Origin: Pelagicoccus enzymogenes
GTDB lineage: Bacteria; Verrucomicrobiota; Verrucomicrobiia; Opitutales; Opitutaceae
Direction of reading: 5' to 3'
Length of the DNA stretch: 64,000 bases
Assembly: GCF_014803405.1 (NCBI RefSeq)
Contig: NZ_JACYFG010000006.1
Location: forward strand, 565,501-629,500
In this document: positions 3,858 to 56,920 of the stretch, piece after piece
Numbering within the stretch: position 1 is the first letter of the stretch
Layout: the number at the start of each line of letters is the position of its first letter
Notes under the pieces: generated by a model
Seen by the model: only the letters and a program-made list of their open reading frames with translations
Database searches by the model: none
Told to the model about the DNA's origin: nothing
Translations under genes and position numbers: made by a program

Positions 3858-6467
3858 ATGGGGATCGAAATTCCGATGGAAATGAGTCATTCAAAAAAAG
3901 CAGCGTCCACGTATCACTATTTTAGATACGCTATTTTCACCATACTTGCCACCTTTCAGATCCAAGCATGGGGCAACAGCGTAGGCCTCGACTGGACGGA
4001 CAACTCCGACAACGAGACGGGCTTCTTGGTAGAGCGATCCGCCAACGGAAACGACTTCGAAGTCATTGGCGAAACTCCCGCAAACCACACGAGCTTCCGG
4101 GATGAGACGATCGTACCAGATGCCCTATACGCCTATCGCGTTTGCGCCTTCAACGAGTTCGGAATGTCGCAATATACCAACATCGTCAGCCACGAGCTGC
4201 CCAACTTTCCTCCAAGCCTCTCACACATAGGAAATTACAGCTTCGCCAGCTCGGACGCGATTCTGATCCCCTTTTCCGTTTCCGATGACCATACGGCTGC
4301 CAACGCGCTGGAGGTTTCTGCGGTTTCCTCAAACCCAAGCGCCATCCCCCAACAGAGCTTGAGCGTCGAAGGCAGCGATGGAAACTTCACTATTAAAGTC
4401 CCTTCCTCCGCCACCGCCCCTGGAACATCCGTTATCAAGCTATCGGTCTTCGATGGAAAACACCGCGTCTACTCGGATATCAACGTAACCATCGTCGAGT
4501 TCTCGCCACCGAACATCGGCATCGAATTTATCTCATCCGCCGATTCCGAGACGATCCACACGGGCGAGCCCTTCCTCGTTTCCTTAGAAATAAGCGACCT
4601 CAGCAAAGTCCGATTCGTAGACTACTTCATCAACGGCGAGCTCATGGCCAACGCCACCGAGGCACCGTTCGATGGCCTATTGCTCGTTGATCAAGCAGGG
4701 TCCGCTGACTTAAAGATCGTTGCCCACCTCTTCGACTCCAACGAGCCCTTGACCATCGAACACACGATCGAAGTCAAGGAAGCTGCCACAGGATCCGCTT
4801 CAAGCGCCAATGCGATTGCCAATGGGGGATTCGAGGATGGCCTGCAGCATTGGAGGTTCTACACAAACGGATCCGGAAACGCAAAAACCGTGCAACCCGG
4901 GCATTCCGATTCGAAAAGCGCCACGCAAATCTCCATCAACTCCATTGGCTCAAATACCCAGCTCTTCCAATCTGACATCTCCCTGAAACCAAATACTGAA
5001 TACAAGCTTTCGTTCGCAGCCTATTCCAATACAGGAAACGACCTGCAGGTTTCCCTCAGAAAGCACAGCTCACCCTATACGGTCTACGGACTGAATCGGG
5101 AGAGTGTAAGCATCACGAAGGGGTGGACCTTGCATACCTTGGCCTTCACGACCCAAGGCTTCAGCTCAGACGTATCGGACGGACGCCTTTCATTCTGGTT
5201 TGCCGATGATGCCAAGGGCGGAGATCGCTACTGGCTCGATAACGTTCAGATCGTGGAGGCCAACTCCGACCTCAGCACCGAACCGGAAACCGAGCCGGAG
5301 CCCGATACTCAACCCGAAACCGAACCGGAAACTGGAACCGAGTCAGGAAATGGAACCGAGACGGAACCGGAAACCGGTTCCGGAACGGAGACCGAAACAG
5401 GCCCGCTTTCGAGCGCCAATCTCCTCGAGAACGGAGGATTCGAGAACGAGCTCAGCAATTGGAGATTCTACACCAACGGAGCCGGCGGAGCAAAAACGGT
5501 GGAAGCGGCAGCTTCCGACAGCGCAGCCCTCATATGGTTGGACTCCGTTGGATCCAATACCCAGCTCTTCCAAGCCGGCATCAACCTCAAACCCGATACC
5601 GAGTACAAGATCACATTCGTCGCCCACTCGAACTCTGGCAACGACCTTCGCGTGTCGCTCAACAAACACGGCACCCCTTACACGAACTACGGTTTGCACC
5701 AGGAAAGCGTTGATATCACTAACGAACCGACCCTGCACTCCCTGTCGTTCACCACTAGGGGCTTCTATTCCGATGTTTCAGATGCCCGACTCTCCTTCTG
5801 GTTCGCGGACGATGCCAAAAACGGCGACCGCTACGTCCTGGACAGGATCCAATTGTTCGAAGCCAACGCAGAAACCAGCCCAGAAACGGAGACGGAACCT
5901 GACTCTAGCTTGGACAATAACCTGGACAATCCCTTGGAAACGGAGCCCGAGCCCGATTCCGGTTTGGAAGAAAGTTCGGATACCGAATCTTCGCTCGCCG
6001 ACAATCCCAACGTCTTACGAAACGGTAGCTTCGAAACGAACCTGTCCTCGTGGAATTTCTACACCAACGGTTCGGGATACGCTAAAACCGCATTCACCAA
6101 CTACAACGGATCCGGCAACGCGGCTTTGATTGCCCTCAACAAAATCGGTTCCAATATACAGCTGCTGCAATCCGGCGTTTCGCTTGAACCAAATACCGAA
6201 TACGTGCTCACCTTCGCGGCCTACTCGAACTCGGGACGTAACCTAAGAGTCGCCCTGAACCAGCATGGAACGCCTTACACGAACTACGGCCTCACCACCA
6301 CAGCCGTCGACCTCACCACCGGATGGAAGGAATTTTCCATAAGGTTCACGAGCACCGGGTTTGATACACCAGTCAACGATGGAAGACTCTACTTCTGGTT
6401 CGCTAGCGATGCCAAGGCAGGCGATTGGTACTACATCGACCAAGTCAGTCTTTCCAAGGCAAACTAA
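3858..6467 (+). CDS. Large secreted surface protein: FN3-like domain plus three CBM-type repeats
   Basis: Up to 869 residues; ATGs at 3858, 3876 and 3882 are all possible, the last giving the neatest signal peptide. Residues about 43-110 form a fibronectin-III-like domain (LDWTDNSDNETGFLVERS), followed by a cadherin-like region. Three near-identical modules at about 314-471, 516-671 and 715-869 begin N-GGFE...W.FYTNGSG and have the look of carbohydrate-binding CBM4/9-type jelly rolls. They are separated by acidic Glu/Pro/Thr linkers. No catalytic domain is visible, so it is probably a cell-surface or released adhesin-like glycan binder. A dispersed repeat starts 11 bases after the stop and a terminator follows. 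Confidence 0.78.
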   Translation: MGIEIPMEMSHSKKAASTYHYFRYAIFTILATFQIQAWGNSVGLDWTDNSDNETGFLVERSANGNDFEVIGETPANHTSFRDETIVPDALYAYRVCAFNEFGMSQYTNIVSHELPNFPPSLSHIGNYSFASSDAILIPFSVSDDHTAANALEVSAVSSNPSAIPQQSLSVEGSDGNFTIKVPSSATAPGTSVIKLSVFDGKHRVYSDINVTIVEFSPPNIGIEFISSADSETIHTGEPFLVSLEISDLSKVRFVDYFINGELMANATEAPFDGLLLVDQAGSADLKIVAHLFDSNEPLTIEHTIEVKEAATGSASSANAIANGGFEDGLQHWRFYTNGSGNAKTVQPGHSDSKSATQISINSIGSNTQLFQSDISLKPNTEYKLSFAAYSNTGNDLQVSLRKHSSPYTVYGLNRESVSITKGWTLHTLAFTTQGFSSDVSDGRLSFWFADDAKGGDRYWLDNVQIVEANSDLSTEPETEPEPDTQPETEPETGTESGNGTETEPETGSGTETETGPLSSANLLENGGFENELSNWRFYTNGAGGAKTVEAAASDSAALIWLDSVGSNTQLFQAGINLKPDTEYKITFVAHSNSGNDLRVSLNKHGTPYTNYGLHQESVDITNEPTLHSLSFTTRGFYSDVSDARLSFWFADDAKNGDRYVLDRIQLFEANAETSPETETEPDSSLDNNLDNPLETEPEPDSGLEESSDTESSLADNPNVLRNGSFETNLSSWNFYTNGSGYAKTAFTNYNGSGNAALIALNKIGSNIQLLQSGVSLEPNTEYVLTFAAYSNSGRNLRVALNQHGTPYTNYGLTTTAVDLTTGWKEFSIRFTSTGFDTPVNDGRLYFWFASDAKAGDWYYIDQVSLSKAN

Positions 6468-15119: not shown

Positions 15120-15279
15120 TAAAAGCGATCAACAAAGCGCCCCCTGCGCCTTGCTCACCGGGCCGTACGCGTTGAGCGGGTCTGCGACCATTCCAGCGAC
15201 GCTCCTTTTCGACTTTCTAAAAATCTAGCGTTGCAGCGCGACTGATTTGCAAGATGGATCGTTTTCTGGCGTGGGCTCT

Positions 15280-16860
15280 ATGCCCCGCATTTCTATGGGA
15301 AGGATCACAACTTTTGTCCGGATACTTTGCGTCGGAGCGGCAACGATGTCGGCGGTGCCGAGCCATGCTCTCCCTTCGGCCCCGGAAGCGTCAAGCCCGA
15401 GCACACCACCCTTCGACGAATCGCTTATCTGGCAAACGGTGGAAGCTGCACCCGTCGGCTTCTTCAGCGCCATGACTTTGCCCACCCGCCCCGTTCCCTT
15501 GGATCGCGCGGTCACCGACAGTCAGGAAGCCGCAGCGATTCTGCTCAACTTATCGATTCAGGAGTGCTTGTCCGACCCCGAGCTGCTGCTCTGCTACAAA
15601 AACCTGATTTCCACCCTCGCTCCATATGTGCCAGTTCTGCTCGGCTACGACGACTCGGAGACTCGCGATCTGGAGCGAGCCCGTATCGCACTCGGTATCG
15701 ATGAAACGAGCTCGATTGGCGACTCGGTAGCGTTCGTAGAATCGCGCAGCAAATCGTATTGGATTCGCGACTACGGTCCAATCTTCGCCATCGGAAAAGA
15801 CGGCAAGCTCATCGTCGTGGATCCCATCTTTGGAAACTGGGAGCAAGAGTTTCGCAGCTTTGCCGAAGACGACGAGTACGCTCAAGCCACCACGGACTAC
15901 GTGGTATTCAAAAAGCGCGATCGAAAGAGCGACCTAACGCCACTCGTTCTGACCTCATACTTTCGCAGGGAAATGGGCATTCGCAGCGAAACGTCGCGCC
16001 CGCCCCTGCTTCTCCTCGGAGGCAACTACCTACCAAACGGCAGCGACCTCGCTCTTGTATCCGAAGATACAATACTTGCGAATGGCGGACTTCGAAACCG
16101 TACAGAACAGGTTATAAGGGCCTACCTCGGATCCCAACAAATCGTATTCCTAGAGAGTGTTCCTCATCCACTGGAAAGCCGCTTGGACTCACAGGTTTCC
16201 TTTCTGGACGCGAGGACCGTACTCGTCGCTTCCCCTCCTGCAAGCAGCCCCCAGTCCAGCTCAGCTGCAAAGTTTCTCACCCGACAACTGGGCGAAGTGT
16301 ACCGCGCAAACTTAAATGCCCTCGGCAACGGCTCCTTGGGAATCGAAATCAGGTCCATTCCATCACTGCCCCTGCGAGAGGCCACCCTGGAAGAGGCCCT
16401 ACAGGCCATCCGCGAATCGGTGAAGCAAAGCCTCAATGCTTCCGCAGACACGAACGAACAAACAGTCCAGCAACTCGAAAAATTGGCTGGCAAGCCGATC
16501 GACCTCGACTCTCTCGAGGGATTGGCAACGGCAACCGCCCTCGTGCTGCAGCGAAACTTGGAGCCCTTGGTGGAGGAGTTCCGTATCGATTCGATGTACC
16601 AACGAACCTTTACCAACGGACTCTGCCTCAATCTCGGCGCGGGAAGGCTCCTGCAGCTTTTGCCACGCTACACCGCCGCACCTGGAGAACGAGGCGCAGC
16701 CATCCAAGAGATTGAAAAGCGCGTTGAGGCTGAGTACCTCAACACGGCTCCACACTGCGAAATCGTCTGGATAGAGGCAGACGCCCTGGCGTCTCGCGGC
16801 GGAAGCTTGCGACGGGCCGCCATGATCGTTCCCAAAGTCCAAATTTCGAATACAGAATGA
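15280..16860 (+). CDS. Exported agmatine/peptidylarginine deiminase-like protein, catalytic residues lost
   Basis: 526 residues from ATG 15280 (15295 also possible), with a signal peptide ending near PSHALPS. It carries the Porphyromonas-type PAD/agmatine deiminase fold signs: WIRDYGP, LLLLGGNYLPNG and SEDTILANGG. However the His-x-Asp motif reads SRLD (Arg301, Asp303) and the C-terminal GGxxHC motif reads GGSLRR (Arg512 where Cys is needed). In the next gene both are intact. It overlaps that gene by 4 bases (ATGA). Likely a non-enzymatic partner or binding subunit of the active paralogue. Family members are usually near 350 residues, so both copies are enlarged. Confidence 0.85.
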   Translation: MPRISMGRITTFVRILCVGAATMSAVPSHALPSAPEASSPSTPPFDESLIWQTVEAAPVGFFSAMTLPTRPVPLDRAVTDSQEAAAILLNLSIQECLSDPELLLCYKNLISTLAPYVPVLLGYDDSETRDLERARIALGIDETSSIGDSVAFVESRSKSYWIRDYGPIFAIGKDGKLIVVDPIFGNWEQEFRSFAEDDEYAQATTDYVVFKKRDRKSDLTPLVLTSYFRREMGIRSETSRPPLLLLGGNYLPNGSDLALVSEDTILANGGLRNRTEQVIRAYLGSQQIVFLESVPHPLESRLDSQVSFLDARTVLVASPPASSPQSSSAAKFLTRQLGEVYRANLNALGNGSLGIEIRSIPSLPLREATLEEALQAIRESVKQSLNASADTNEQTVQQLEKLAGKPIDLDSLEGLATATALVLQRNLEPLVEEFRIDSMYQRTFTNGLCLNLGAGRLLQLLPRYTAAPGERGAAIQEIEKRVEAEYLNTAPHCEIVWIEADALASRGGSLRRAAMIVPKVQISNTE

Positions 16861-18443
16861 GGAGCAACAAAGCTAAGATTATACTGCAAGCCATCGGGGT
16901 CGCCATGTCCACCACACTCCTAGCCGCGGGAGTAGACTCGGAAGCAGATAAGCTGATCATTCGGACGTTGGGAACCGGACAAAGCGACTTCTTCAACCGT
17001 CAAACCATTCCCACAGCTCCCCTTCCAGTAAGCCGACCTGTGGCGGAATGGGAGCCCGCAGCATTCGTTTGGATCAATCTCTCCCTCGGCCGAAGCCTGC
17101 AGGAGCCGGAGGTCCTTGCCTTCTATCAAGCGATCGCAGGTGCCGTCTCCGAATTTGTCCCGGTTGTCATTGGCTGCGACTTCGACGAGCTCAAATACTG
17201 GTCCCGCTTCGAAAGGGAGTTCTTCAAGGAGGGTAAATTTTTCGGAAGACGTGATCATATCCATTTCGTAGATACGAAGTGCGATTCCAACTGGAATCGA
17301 GACTATGGCCCCAGCTTCGCCCGAGGCATGAACGGCGAGCTCGTTTTCATCGACTCCATGTATCGAGAGGGGCAGGCCGAAAGAGAAGCGTTCGGCGACA
17401 AGCGAAGCGAACTCCTTTCCCAAGCCCCTTCCCAAACAAAGGAGCTGTTCCAAGCTTTTCGCAGAAACGCTCGCCGTGCGGAGCTCGCCCCCTTGGCCCT
17501 CGCCCGTCACTGTCGTAGCCGCTTAGGCATGGCAGTGGACCTGACACGGCCCGCCCTCGTGTTACACGGTGGCGACTACTTGTCGGACGGTCGCCGCGCC
17601 TTCCTTTCCGAAGATACTTTGATGAACAACGGCGGTCGCGAATCCGCCTTGCAGTCGCTTTTCCAACACTACTTCGCCGTGGATGAACTGCATGTGCTCG
17701 AAGCCCTGCCCGGGAGAGCGGTCAAGCACATGGACTTGTCTTGGAAATTGCTGTCAGCTGACACGGCAGTCATCGCCGAAGCGCCGCGAAAAGCTAACAA
17801 TAGCGGCCGCTACGCCTCCAACCTACGGACCAAGGCCGAAAGAGCGCTCAGCAGAAACAAACACTACCTGCAAACTCACTGTCCAGACATCGAACTTTTA
17901 GATGTCCCCATGCCTCCCCTTCTCCACGACCAACGAGAGGAGGTTATCCTGAACATTTGGATACACGTTATTCGAGGCGCTTGCCGAGAGGTGAAGGTTC
18001 CCTTTGACAACTACTGGTATGTCGAAAAGCCAGGCCCCGACTACCCTGAGACCAAGGCTCGCGTCGAAGGACGCTTGACTGAGATACTGGGGAGAGAACC
18101 CAACTTCGGCGACGAAGGGGACCTCAACCTCTTGTCGATCCACTACCTTGGCGAGAGCGTGGAAACATCGATCCAGACTCACGTTGAAAGTTCGACGGTC
18201 TACCGCAGCTACACGAACTCCGTGATCGTCAACGCAGGCGAGAAGGGGATTCTCCTGCTGCTTCCTCGCTACCGAGCCAGTAAGGGCGAGCATCAAGAGG
18301 ACTACCAAAAGATGGAAATCGCGGTCGAAACCGCCTACCGAAAGGCCTACCCTGAAGCCAGCATCCGCTGGATCGATTCGGACTTCATGGCCAGACTAGG
18401 CGGAGCTTTGCATTGCGCCAGCATCACCGTCCCTCTTCCATAG
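16857..18443 (+). CDS. Exported agmatine/peptidylarginine deiminase-like enzyme
   Basis: 528 residues, signal peptide about 1-24. Guanidino-modifying residues are present: Asp149 in NWNRDYGP, His291 and Asp293 in KHMD, and Cys520 in GGALHC near the C-terminus, as in Porphyromonas PAD (Asp130, His236, Asp238, Cys351). Such enzymes hydrolyse arginine-type guanidino groups to citrulline or a ureido product plus ammonia. A roughly 150-residue insertion separates the His and Cys parts. Start ATG overlaps the stop of the paralogous upstream gene, so they are translated together. Substrate (peptidyl-arginine, agmatine or other) is not determined. It converges with the nitric oxide synthase gene. Confidence 0.87.
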   Translation: MRSNKAKIILQAIGVAMSTTLLAAGVDSEADKLIIRTLGTGQSDFFNRQTIPTAPLPVSRPVAEWEPAAFVWINLSLGRSLQEPEVLAFYQAIAGAVSEFVPVVIGCDFDELKYWSRFEREFFKEGKFFGRRDHIHFVDTKCDSNWNRDYGPSFARGMNGELVFIDSMYREGQAEREAFGDKRSELLSQAPSQTKELFQAFRRNARRAELAPLALARHCRSRLGMAVDLTRPALVLHGGDYLSDGRRAFLSEDTLMNNGGRESALQSLFQHYFAVDELHVLEALPGRAVKHMDLSWKLLSADTAVIAEAPRKANNSGRYASNLRTKAERALSRNKHYLQTHCPDIELLDVPMPPLLHDQREEVILNIWIHVIRGACREVKVPFDNYWYVEKPGPDYPETKARVEGRLTEILGREPNFGDEGDLNLLSIHYLGESVETSIQTHVESSTVYRSYTNSVIVNAGEKGILLLLPRYRASKGEHQEDYQKMEIAVETAYRKAYPEASIRWIDSDFMARLGGALHCASITVPLP

Positions 18444-18554: not shown

Positions 18555-19580
18555 TTAGTGAAACGGACAACGAGAAGCACTCCTTCCGACGGGAGACAGT
18601 TCACGCTTCCAAGCCGGCTTCTGGTACTTGAACGCGGGCTCGGGGTGCGTCTTGTCGTAACCACGGAAATACAAGTCCATGGTTGAACCCGCCATAGGAG
18701 GGACCAGCCATGACCAGTCTCCCACGACGCTTCGCCCTTGACGCTCCTCTTTTTCCACGAACTTGGAAAACTGCTGGGCAGCCGAATGGTGGTCGACCAG
18801 AGACACGCCCGCTTCCTTGAAGGAGAATTGGACCGCGGAGCACAGCTCAACCAGGGCCCGATCCTTCCAGAAAGAAGCGCGATCGCGGGTGGAAAGGCCC
18901 ATATTTTCCGCGATGCGCGGGAGCATGTTGTAGCGCCCCTCGTCACCGAAATTCCGCACCGCAATTTCCGTCACCATGTAATGACCGCTGAAGGGAGCTG
19001 CAGAGAACTTGTAGTCCCCGAAGACCAAGGCCATGTCCGAAATAGCCGGCAAGGCATGCCAACGCAAACCGAGCCGCTCGAACCACTCGAAATGCGGATG
19101 GCGTATCCTAACTTCCATGACATGCTTCCGGGGAATCTCAAACAGCTTCACACCTAGGTGCGGCAGCTCGATCGCCAGCGGCAAAATATCGAAAGGACTC
19201 GGCTGGGCCGGAGGCGTCCAGCCCAAGGCCCGCAGCTGTTCGGTGAACTCCAGCTGAGCTGGATCGCCCAAAACCGTGCCGTTCGCCAGGCGATACCCCG
19301 CGTAACGTATCAATTGCTTATTCCAAATACGAATGCCGCGCCGCCCACGGGCCACCGGCTCGAAGACGGTAATCGCCGAACGAATTCGCCCGCCGTTCGT
19401 GGAGAAGTCCAAATGCTGCAAGCAGGCCTCGAATACTTCGTCGTGCCCTGTCGCGCCACGCGCATCCAACAACTCCAGGCTGTCCCACAGCGCCCGGCCG
19501 ATGCAACGCGCGTTGTTCCGCCACGCCTCGCGGGCCTGCTCCCGTATCTGCTCTGCCTCAAGGAATCGATCACTCTTCAT
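18555..19580 (-). CDS. nos: Bacterial nitric oxide synthase, oxygenase domain only
   Basis: 341 residues matching NOS oxygenases throughout: AWRNNARCIGR (heme thiolate Cys26, Trp20), WNKQLIRYAGY, FDILPL, AAPFSG, TEIAVRN (substrate Glu205, Arg209), RYNML, WKDRALVEL, VDHHSAA and WSWLVPPMAGS (pterin-side Trp289/Trp291). It would oxidise L-arginine to citrulline and NO using an outside reductase; no flavodoxin or reductase domain is attached or nearby. An in-frame stop 18 bases upstream fixes the start, which has GGAG before it, so the N-terminus is about 40 residues shorter than Bacillus NOS. The usual GWYM reads GHYM (His200), and ELN reads ELC. Confidence 0.95.
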   Translation of the reverse strand: MKSDRFLEAEQIREQAREAWRNNARCIGRALWDSLELLDARGATGHDEVFEACLQHLDFSTNGGRIRSAITVFEPVARGRRGIRIWNKQLIRYAGYRLANGTVLGDPAQLEFTEQLRALGWTPPAQPSPFDILPLAIELPHLGVKLFEIPRKHVMEVRIRHPHFEWFERLGLRWHALPAISDMALVFGDYKFSAAPFSGHYMVTEIAVRNFGDEGRYNMLPRIAENMGLSTRDRASFWKDRALVELCSAVQFSFKEAGVSLVDHHSAAQQFSKFVEKEERQGRSVVGDWSWLVPPMAGSTMDLYFRGYDKTHPEPAFKYQKPAWKRELSPVGRSASRCPFH

Positions 19581-19829
19581 CTCAACTCTCCGTCCCTAGC
19601 GAAAACAGGACGGGGCGTTCGCCCATGGCAAAGGAAAAATCGACGAACCCTCCCAAAAAATGCCTTTCGTTTTTCGCGAATAACTCTTCGCGCTCCTGAA
19701 GTATTTCGGAGCGACGCCTCGCTTTACGAAACAAACTCGGAACGCGTGCCATGGATGCAGCCTTGCTCTAATCCATTCGGCGCAAAAGCTACTCCCAACC
19801 TGCCTGCCCCCCTGAAAGCATCTCGCCTC

Positions 19830-21476
19830 ATGAACTGGACCGCACCTTTCTCTACCCTTCTCGCCCTCATTGCCACGGCCCACGCCCTTGGCAGCTCCAC
19901 CGTCACGATCGTCAGCTCCGCGGACCCCACCCAAGTGATCGAAGAGGAGAACGGCAGCCTCTTGCTCACGGTTTCGCAGGACGATAAAAAGGCCTTCGCC
20001 AAAGCGGGGCAGATCAGCTACGAAAACTTCGGGGCAGCCGGCGACGGAGTCACGGACGACGCGGTCGCGATCGCCGCCACCCACGCCTACGCCAACCAGC
20101 ATCAGCTTAAGGTTAGAGCCAAGGACAACGCGACCTACTACATCGGCGGCGAGGAACGAACCGCTTATATCCAAACCGATACGGACTTCGGAAACGCCTC
20201 CTTCATCATCGACGACACCGCTGTCGAAAAACGGGACGCCCCCGTCTTCGTAGTCAGTTCCCAACAAAAGTCCTTCAAGCTCGAGGGCCTTACCTCCCTC
20301 AAGCGGAACCAGAAACGGATCAACGTTCCGCTCCCTGGCCCCTGCCTTGTCACGGTTACCGACTCCAATACCAAGCGCTACATCCGATACGGCCTGAACC
20401 AAAACAACGGAGCCTCCCAAACCGATATCTTCGTGGTCGACAAAAACGGCAAGCTCGACCCCATGGCCCCCATCGTCTGGGACTTTGAAGAAATCACCGA
20501 CTGCACCGCACTGCCGATCGACGAAACAACCCTTACCATCAGCGGCGGCACGTTCACCACCATCGCCAACCAAGCCGAGTCGAAGTACACCTACTACAGC
20601 CGCAACCTCGCCATCCGACGCTCAAACGTCGTGGTCGACGGCTTGGAACATCGCGTCACCGGCGAGGGCGATCAAGGCGCCCCCTACGGCGGATTTATCA
20701 ACATTCGCGACAGCGCTTACGTCACCGTCAAAAATGCCCTCCTCACCGGGCGCAAGAAATACATCACCATCGGCAACGCCGGCAAACCGGTCCCCATGGG
20801 AAGCTACGACATCATCGTCAACCGCTCCCTCAACGTATCGTTCGTAAATTGCAGCCAAACCAACGACATTCACGACCGCGACTACTGGGGCATCATGGGA
20901 TCCAACTTCTCCAAGAACCTCCTCTACGATCGCTGCACCCTCTCCCGATTCGACGCTCACATGGGAGTCGCCAACGCCACCATCCGCAACTCCACCCTCG
21001 GGCACATGGGCATCAACGCCATCGGCACCGGCACCCTTACTCTCGAAAACTCCATCGTCTACGGCCCCCACCTCGTGAACTTGCGCCAAGACTACGGCAG
21101 CACTTGGCAAGGCCGCATCCTGGTCCGCGACTGCCGCTTCGTTCCCTCGAGCGGCCGGTCCGTCAGCGCTAGCCTCATCGGCGGACGCAACTCCACCCAG
21201 CACGACTTCGGCTACACCTGCTACCTGCCCGAAGAGATAGTCATCGAGAACCTGCACATCGACGACTCCAACCACCCTGAGAATTACGAGGGTCCCGCCA
21301 TCTTCGCAAACTTCACTCCAGAGATGACCGACTCCAGCTATCAGGAAAGCTATCCCTACGTTCGCCCCAAGCGCGTCTTGCTGCGGGACGTCACCACCGC
21401 CAGCGGCCAGAGCCTGCGCGTCAGCGATAATCCCTTTCCCTTCCGAAAAGTGAAAGTCGACACTCGCAAGCGCTAG
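19830..21476 (+). CDS. Secreted right-handed beta-helix protein (pectate lyase 3 superfamily)
   Basis: 548 residues from the ATG at 19830, which opens a signal peptide (MNWTAPFSTLLALIATAHALG); the open frame upstream is only the mirror of the NOS gene. ISYENFGAAGDGVTDDAVAIAAT is the classic Pectate_lyase_3/GH28-like entry motif, and the rest shows beta-helix rungs (SNVVVDGLEH, SAYVTVKNALLTG, ATIRNSTLGHMG). Probably acts on a polysaccharide outside the cytoplasm, as lyase, glycosidase or binder; no confident catalytic residues. A dispersed repeat (copy B) starts 13 bases past the stop. Confidence 0.82.
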   Translation: MNWTAPFSTLLALIATAHALGSSTVTIVSSADPTQVIEEENGSLLLTVSQDDKKAFAKAGQISYENFGAAGDGVTDDAVAIAATHAYANQHQLKVRAKDNATYYIGGEERTAYIQTDTDFGNASFIIDDTAVEKRDAPVFVVSSQQKSFKLEGLTSLKRNQKRINVPLPGPCLVTVTDSNTKRYIRYGLNQNNGASQTDIFVVDKNGKLDPMAPIVWDFEEITDCTALPIDETTLTISGGTFTTIANQAESKYTYYSRNLAIRRSNVVVDGLEHRVTGEGDQGAPYGGFINIRDSAYVTVKNALLTGRKKYITIGNAGKPVPMGSYDIIVNRSLNVSFVNCSQTNDIHDRDYWGIMGSNFSKNLLYDRCTLSRFDAHMGVANATIRNSTLGHMGINAIGTGTLTLENSIVYGPHLVNLRQDYGSTWQGRILVRDCRFVPSSGRSVSASLIGGRNSTQHDFGYTCYLPEEIVIENLHIDDSNHPENYEGPAIFANFTPEMTDSSYQESYPYVRPKRVLLRDVTTASGQSLRVSDNPFPFRKVKVDTRKR

Positions 21477-53663: not shown

Positions 53664-54557
53664 TCAAGCTGACGACTTTCCAAGCCCAGCGCGACAAACC
53701 TCCAAGAAGCTGCGAAACGCACGCGTCTGGGCGGCTTGCCGCGGATGGACGAGAGCAATCGAGCGATAGACCGGGGCCGGCGCCAAGGACCGCAATGCGA
53801 GCTTCCTACCCTGCAAGCGCTGGCGGGCAATCTCCGGGGCGAAGGAAACGCCAAAGCCAGCCTCCACCATCGACACCAAAGTCTCTATTTGAGCGCTCTG
53901 GAAAAACACCTCCGGACTCCAGCCGATGTTATTGCAAATCGCGAGCGCCTGCCCTCGCAGACAGTGAGCCTCCTTCATCAAAATGATAGGTTCGCTCATC
54001 AGATCCGAAAGCTGGATTCCCTTTTTCTTGGCCAAGCGATGCTTCTCAGGCAACGCCACTAGGATCTCGTCTTGGGCCAGCTCTTCCGTGACCCATTCAT
54101 CTCCCTCGACCGGCAAGCTCAACAAGGCCAACTCCACGCGTCCTTCCTTCATGGATACCAGCAAGTTCTCTGTCGTATCCTCGGAGATATCGAAGGTAAG
54201 CTGCGGCAGCCGCTCCCTCGCCATCCCTAAAACCGTGGGCATCAGATAGGGAGCGATCGTCGGGATCACCCCGATACGCAGCTCTCCCCGAGTCTCTCCC
54301 TGGTAAGCCGACGCATCTTCGCTGGCCGCCTTGACCTCGCCCAGGATCGTGATCGCCCGCCGAAAGAAGGAGCGCCCAAAGGCCGTTGTCTGAGCACCTT
54401 TGCGACTGCGCGTCAACAGAGGCTCCCCCAAGGCCTGCTCCAGCTTCTTGATCTGGTGGCTCAAAGTCGGTTGCGTAACCGAGCAACGCACCGCTGCTCG
54501 CGTGAAACTGCCCGTTTGCACCACTTCCACGAAGTAGCGGAGCTGATGGATCTCCAT
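53664..54557 (-). CDS. oxyR: OxyR, peroxide-sensing LysR-type regulator
   Basis: 297 residues from the ATG at 54555-54557 (54564-54566 would add three). N-terminal winged helix (SFTRAAVRCSVTQPTLSHQIKKLE), then the LysR substrate domain. HCLRGQALAIC supplies the redox Cys pair, numbered Cys199 and Cys208 with this start, the same as E. coli OxyR. It should become a disulfide on H2O2 and activate katG, transcribed divergently. A near-consensus OxyR box overlaps the start codon. Confidence 0.93.
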   Translation of the reverse strand: MEIHQLRYFVEVVQTGSFTRAAVRCSVTQPTLSHQIKKLEQALGEPLLTRSRKGAQTTAFGRSFFRRAITILGEVKAASEDASAYQGETRGELRIGVIPTIAPYLMPTVLGMARERLPQLTFDISEDTTENLLVSMKEGRVELALLSLPVEGDEWVTEELAQDEILVALPEKHRLAKKKGIQLSDLMSEPIILMKEAHCLRGQALAICNNIGWSPEVFFQSAQIETLVSMVEAGFGVSFAPEIARQRLQGRKLALRSLAPAPVYRSIALVHPRQAAQTRAFRSFLEVCRAGLGKSSA

Positions 54558-54592
54558 AGACTTCATCTATGCAAAATATGAATAACAAGTAT
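54556..54592. promoter_or_regulatory. OxyR binding box
   Basis: ATAG-N7-CTAT-N7-ATGA-N7-GTAT with all three spacers exactly 7 bases, matching the OxyR pattern ATAG-N7-CTAT-N7-ATAG-N7-CTAT (first two perfect, the others with 2 and 1 changes). It overlaps the oxyR start and lies about 170 bases before katG, fit for autoregulation and katG activation. Confidence 0.7.

Positions 54593-54742: not shown

Positions 54743-56920
<2,178 letters not shown>

Follow-up and report, generated by a model that had tools for sequence, protein, structure and literature searches.

A 64,000-nucleotide stretch of the Pelagicoccus enzymogenes genome (the window; coordinates below are positions within it) encodes what is most probably a functional, stand-alone nitric oxide synthase (NOS) oxygenase from a "short" verrucomicrobial branch of the bacterial enzymes, a reading to which we give a probability of roughly three in four. 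Its sequence, its residues, its branch, and the conservation of its terminal tag were observed directly. The enzyme would most likely use a heme ligated by Cys26 to oxidize L-arginine, by way of N-hydroxyarginine, to citrulline and NO. The iNOS numbers attached to pocket positions (Tyr341, Val346, Asn364, Trp366, and others) are presumed equivalences.

18555..19580, minus strand: NOS oxygenase coding sequence, 341 amino acids from the ATG, plus stop (open reading frame and PF02898 profile match)
19596..19598, minus strand: in-frame TAG, six codons 5' of the ATG, which fixes the short N terminus
19503..19505, minus strand: codon of the heme-ligand Cys26 (Cys in 118/118 rows of the NOS alignment)
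19056..19058, minus strand: His175, at the iNOS Tyr341 position (column H 63, Y 53, P 1, F 1 of 118)
19041..19043, minus strand: Ile180, the NO-release gate (iNOS Val346; alignment of 118 rows)
18981..18983, minus strand: His200 of GHYM (iNOS Trp366; alignment of 118 rows)
18966..18968, minus strand: substrate Glu205 (Glu in 118/118 rows)
18840..18842, minus strand: Cys247 of ELC (column Asn 113/118, Cys 4/118)

Identity, start, and branch of the NOS gene

PF02898 matched the protein with 432.9 bits (E value of 1.2e-129) across profile positions 50-362 of 362, nearly the whole domain, and was its single Pfam family, while an NCBIfam profile search gave no match at an E value of 0.001. Among solved structures, the best matches are NOS oxygenases, headed by 2flq (E value of 2.5e-99), with the alignment beginning at residue 10 of the protein and chain residue 60. 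In the genome of origin (96% complete), PF02898 matched this protein only. Gln89, Arg92, Tyr201, Glu205, Arg209, and the pterin-side Trp289 and Trp291 are all kept. The initial annotation had described a complete NOS oxygenase with Cys26, Glu205, and the Trp pair, and this is confirmed by the alignment and the profile match; the unlinked reductase that it inferred agrees with the lack of a fused reductase in the 341-residue protein. The retained heme, substrate-Glu, and pterin residues, together with the Ile180 gate and the 433-bit match, support a functional NOS. These residues, the Ile gate, and membership in PF02898 are shared with the stand-alone enzymes of Bacillus and Geobacillus (2flq), which likewise have no fused reductase. 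The protein differs from these in an N terminus shorter by ∼40 residues, in His200 for Trp, in His175 for Tyr, in ELC, and in a terminal Cys-Pro-Phe-His (CPFH).

The in-frame TAG at 19596-19598 sets the short start as had been claimed, and GGAGAG lies just 5' of the ATG. The estimate of about 40 missing residues stands provided that the heme Cys of Bacillus subtilis NOS lies near residue 66, as we take it to. Bacillus NOS has N-terminal helices, which would be missing from the window NOS and from many members of its branch. The nearest named relative, from Pelagicoccus sp. SDUM812005 (L024; same genus, 77% identical), has His200, ELC, and the short start, its first ATG being preceded by an in-frame stop 11 codons 5'. 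Because L024 comes from a separate assembly, sequencing error at these sites, which the initial annotation had raised, is rejected for all three traits. A frameshift behind the short start was likewise rejected: the other upstream frames hold stops and, by eye, no recognizable NOS N terminus. A further Pelagicoccus-genus NOS (L002) also has ELC, but Tyr at position 200; its frame is open further upstream, with 66 residues before the heme Cys, and the first 46 profile positions have no match.

NOS frames were gathered from four overlapping sets of Verrucomicrobiota genomes, namely, a relatives set (9/95 genomes with NOS), a phylum sample (18/387), an order set (33/273), and one family of the class (73/244), with the genome of origin present in three of them. 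Nine of 14 NOS-holding plasmid records and four genome contigs were added; partial matches in G805 and G682 (family set) and a second piece in G481 (order set) were left out. The 123 loci and the window made 124 rows, and removal of six duplicates or fragments left 118, comprising 108 verrucomicrobial rows (window included), 9 plasmid references, and a MAG labelled Chryseobacterium (L027). The sample is therefore strongly verrucomicrobial. Four frames (L020, L049, L054, and L066) were flagged with one in-frame stop and may be decaying copies or assembly errors. NOS was also looked for in viral contigs, where none was found.

In the tree (LG+C20, quick search, SH-aLRT support; the program warned of long branches, including L066 of the window's group), the window NOS pairs with L024 (support of 93), and L002 is their sister (100, starred). 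These lie inside a 45-row group (support of 92, not starred) without any Trp at position 200, where Tyr (17), His (16), and Phe (12) are found instead. At most 60 residues separate the upstream stop or contig end from the heme Cys in 24/45 group rows versus 2/73 other rows, one of which (L106) begins at the first base of its contig; as starts were taken from the open frame, rows with longer frames may still start late. The initial annotation had asked whether the His and the short start are general in bacterial NOSs, and they are so for the window's branch but not for the family as a whole. The NOSs of Akkermansia-labelled and Verrucomicrobiaceae MAGs (L025 and L026) resemble the window NOS in GHYMVTEI, in His at the 175 position, and in the short start, but are only 57% identical to it and lack the CPFH tail, having GSACPVFHR near the C terminus instead.

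A terminal Cys-Pro tag on NOS and KatG

The C-terminal CPFH, like His175, was missed in the initial annotation. It recurs near the N terminus of a second heme enzyme encoded in the window.

18558..18569, minus strand: C-terminal CPFH, the last four codons of NOS, conserved in genus relatives
54761..56920, plus strand: katG, catalase-peroxidase HPI, with CPFH at 54779-54790 in its N-terminal stretch

The NOS C termini read ...GRSASRCPFH in the window, ...GKCPFHSGRG in L024, and ...SGCPFHS in L002, so that across the three Pelagicoccus-genus proteins CPFH is identical after a divergent linker and is written with three codon sets. In the window NOS, the Cys-Pro is at the extreme C terminus after this variable linker; residues 321-341 have pLDDT values of 26 to 30 in the predicted model, which is, however, poor (mean pLDDT of 64, from a five-row alignment) and has low values throughout 284-341.

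CP[FY] was found in a terminal tail of 46/118 NOS rows (35 N-terminal, 11 C-terminal, and never at both ends), compared to a mean of 0.48 in shuffled tails (standard deviation of 0.68, maximum of 4 in 1,000 trials). Five reordered motifs gave 0 each, and HP[FY], SP[FY], and AP[FY] gave 1 each; any CP occurs in 66 tails, and any PC occurs in 2. When CP followed by any of F, Y, W, V, M, L, or I was counted, 59/118 rows were tagged versus a shuffle mean of 2.6 (maximum of 8); 12 of these are C-terminal, starting 4 to 8 residues from the end, and none is tagged at both ends. N-terminal tails were counted from the first ATG of the open frame, which stands in for the true start, and two motifs counted under another definition (L018 CPW and L054 CPF) fell outside the boundary set for C-terminal tails. 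Since the rows are related, the 46 tagged rows are not 46 independent events; under a wider definition, which takes in at least one motif inside the domain (L014), the tail state requires a minimum of 15 changes on the tree. An internal CPxFH near the C terminus (GSACPVFHR is an example), at a place usually occupied by TP in NOS, was also seen in 39/45 group rows and 1/73 others; four of the six group rows without it (window, L024, L002, and L054) end in a C-terminal CPF tail instead.

The window KatG (TIGR00198, 1,251 bits) belongs to a family unrelated to NOS in descent and chemistry but likewise carries CPFH in a terminal tail, as does the solved KatG 5l05, which starts MSNEAKCPFH. KatG is present in 37/194 genomes of a phylum sample, and in all 30 loci fetched (parsed as 21 plus 9) CP[FVI] lies near the N terminus, before the conserved WWP segment. 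Divergent from katG is a gene for a LysR-type regulator (53664-54566) whose best NCBIfam match, below the curated cut-off, is OxyR.

Across the genome of origin, CPFH codons occur at 14 sites versus 11 for the reversed pattern, so their number is that of chance. Five of the 14 lie in genes recognized by Pfam or NCBIfam: NOS (last four residues), KatG (residue 7), DnaG (residue 41, within its zinc finger), and two regulators, one of the AraC type (residue 28) and one of the Rrf2 type (40 residues before the end). Thus, among recognized genes, only NOS and KatG have the motif within 10 residues of an end. At the remaining sites, either the motif is not preceded by a start codon or the frame is short and overlapped by a longer one; the two of these that were checked (L138 and L139) had no Pfam match. 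The looser CP[FY]xH gave 24 sites, of which those in recognized genes belong to KatG, as before, and to a glutaredoxin (CPYC at residue 12); the four further frames that were checked had no family match.

Other heme enzymes of the phylum were searched as well. None of the P450s in 18 loci (L170 and L179 were mis-picked, and L184 and L185 are one gene) has CP[FY] in the 15 residues next to an open-frame end, although four frames with provisional starts have CP[LVF] in the first 66 residues, one of them (L183) with CPFQ 24 residues after a Met. The catalases, 28 of whose 30 loci were parsed, have no clear tag, and one (L218) has CPV in its first 60 residues. A catalase of the genome of origin (L233) ends ...TASCPA, with Cys-Pro three residues from the end. 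Tryptophan dioxygenase was found in 2/145 genomes. That neither catalases nor P450s show a clear tag argues against its being general among heme enzymes.

The NOS CPFH resembles in sequence the heme-regulatory CP motifs, with cysteine-proline and a nearby His. One review describes CP motifs as the best explored heme regulatory motifs and reports that an additional His or Tyr tended to increase the heme affinity of cysteine-based peptides (PMC6356037); it is from this literature that we read the NOS tail as a possible heme-touching arm. In the open-access literature, with subscription papers mostly outside the search, no mention of a terminal CP tag was found for either NOS or KatG. We tentatively propose that in many bacterial NOSs, as in KatG, one terminus bears a Cys-Pro-(Phe/Tyr)-(His) arm that would bind heme, would have shifted between the N and C termini during evolution, and may load, sense, or remove heme; on the window NOS, it would touch the heme transiently during loading, sensing, or turnover. 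Equally tentatively, the tag could instead serve metal binding, redox chemistry, degradation, or partner docking. Such a role would fit the CPFH of the DnaG zinc finger and of the Rrf2-type and AraC-type regulators, the CPYC of glutaredoxin, and the P450s and catalases, which show no clear tag. It fits less well with the few ligands that a lone CPFH offers to a classical zinc site, with the fact that the two recognized genes of this genome whose CPFH lies no more than 10 residues from an end both encode heme enzymes, and with the near-N-terminal CP[FVI] of every KatG locus examined.

The arginine pocket

The initial annotation singled out His200 and ELC, both of which are present as claimed, and took the Trp that His200 replaces to be invariant looking. 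It is Trp in just 49/118 rows, followed by His (30), Tyr (23), Phe (14), Asn (1), and Ile (1); with 69 rows lacking it, Trp before YMxTEI is not family defining. By comparison, the heme Cys, the heme-stacking Trp, both pterin Trp residues, and (iNOS numbering) Gln257, Trp340, Pro344, Gly365, Glu371, and Arg382 are identical in 118/118 rows. Among the ten rows from outside the verrucomicrobial set (nine plasmid rows and L027), five have Trp and five do not, and two alphaproteobacterial plasmid NOSs (L082 and L083) have His. GHYM occurs in 19/118 rows and GHYMVTEI in five (window, L024, L025, L026, and L027). The Cys of ELC is rarer, being confined to the three Pelagicoccus-genus NOSs and L066. 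That His200 is shared by relatives, with Tyr or Phe in its place within the branch, supports a functional NOS, and the His no longer appears as the mark of an unusual enzyme.

The placement of this Trp at the arginine site is supported. The guanidinium contact at position 200 is, we assume from NOS structures, made by the main-chain carbonyl, so His200 would be tolerated while the side chain drifts among Trp, His, Tyr, and Phe. In SyNOS, Trp715 and Tyr716 are reported to contact L-arginine (PMC6104048), and Trp366 is listed among the pocket residues of iNOS (PMC3472740).

The presumed arginine pocket contains both His175 and His200, and this counts against the functional NOS reading to the extent that a changed substrate is possible. 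The protein might then be a NOS-fold enzyme whose pocket has been reshaped for another guanidine or a different oxidation, a reading that we consider unlikely. Besides the two His residues, it draws on the absence of Trp from 45/45 group rows and on the column two before it (iNOS Asn364), which is Ser in 64/69 non-Trp rows and Asn in 47/49 Trp rows. On the tree, position 200 changed between Trp and non-Trp a minimum of 7 times, but the association with Asn364 gave only 3 independent pairs on supported branches and may be mere descent. Against a new function, Glu205, Gln89, Arg92, Tyr201, Arg209, Trp289, and Trp291 are all kept, and 15/49 Trp-type rows, including those of Nostoc (L075) and Deinococcus (L076), likewise have His at position 341. 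Furthermore, position 200 varies even among the three Pelagicoccus-genus NOSs (His, His, and Tyr), a pattern that looks more like relaxed constraint than like a new ligand. Altered NO release, also proposed initially, is not indicated, the gate residue being Ile180 in a column of Val (55), Ile (35), Leu (27), and Met (1). Because these traits are common in the branch, the catalytic residues are kept, and the gate is Ile, the idea of an altered enzyme loses most of its support.

Gene neighborhood and meaning

Two genes for PAD-type deiminases converge on NOS from the other strand.

15247-16860 and 16857-18443, opposite strand to NOS: tandem PAD-type deiminase genes (PF04371 matches)

In what we take to be the C-terminal motif of agmatine deiminase, the second gene keeps the Cys (GGALHCAS) and the first seems to be without it (GGSLRRAA), so the first protein may be inactive. 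A partnership of NOS with these deiminases in arginine/citrulline metabolism, suggested by the adjoining PF04371 matches, is very improbable, given the opposite strand and the absence of homologues of either gene from eight other NOS loci (11 to 20 kb each, two of the same genus), and an operon of NOS with the PAD genes was rejected for this lack of conservation. A divergent gene (19752-21476) belongs to no Pfam family; it has a homologue adjoining NOS in L125, and the matches that it gave in L126 and L129 could be fortuitous.

No reductase or pathway neighbor is conserved across those eight loci, which, with the unstarred support of the 45-row branch, counts against the functional NOS reading. 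The electron donor would be a general flavodoxin or ferredoxin reductase of the cell whose gene lies elsewhere. In a family relative (L009, 3-2003), a reductase-like portion (BFD-like [2Fe-2S] and weak FAD-binding) stands N-terminal to the NOS oxygenase, which is truncated by the end of the contig. On a Micromonospora plasmid (L081), a flavohemoglobin-like gene with globin, FAD, and NAD domains lies directly 3' of NOS (3987-5150). One study mentions in passing a NOS gene in verrucomicrobial MAGs (PMC5673642).

The NOS is thus real but ordinary within its branch, and the terminal tag raises its interest. The comparison shows that Trp at the arginine site is not invariant, and the published statement that Ile replaces Val at the NO gate in all bacterial NOSs (PMC6104048) is corrected by the 55/118 rows with Val there. 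It also brings out a terminal tag that recurs on NOS and KatG and which, if the heme-binding arm is real, would be a regulatory tag common to unrelated cytoplasmic heme enzymes.
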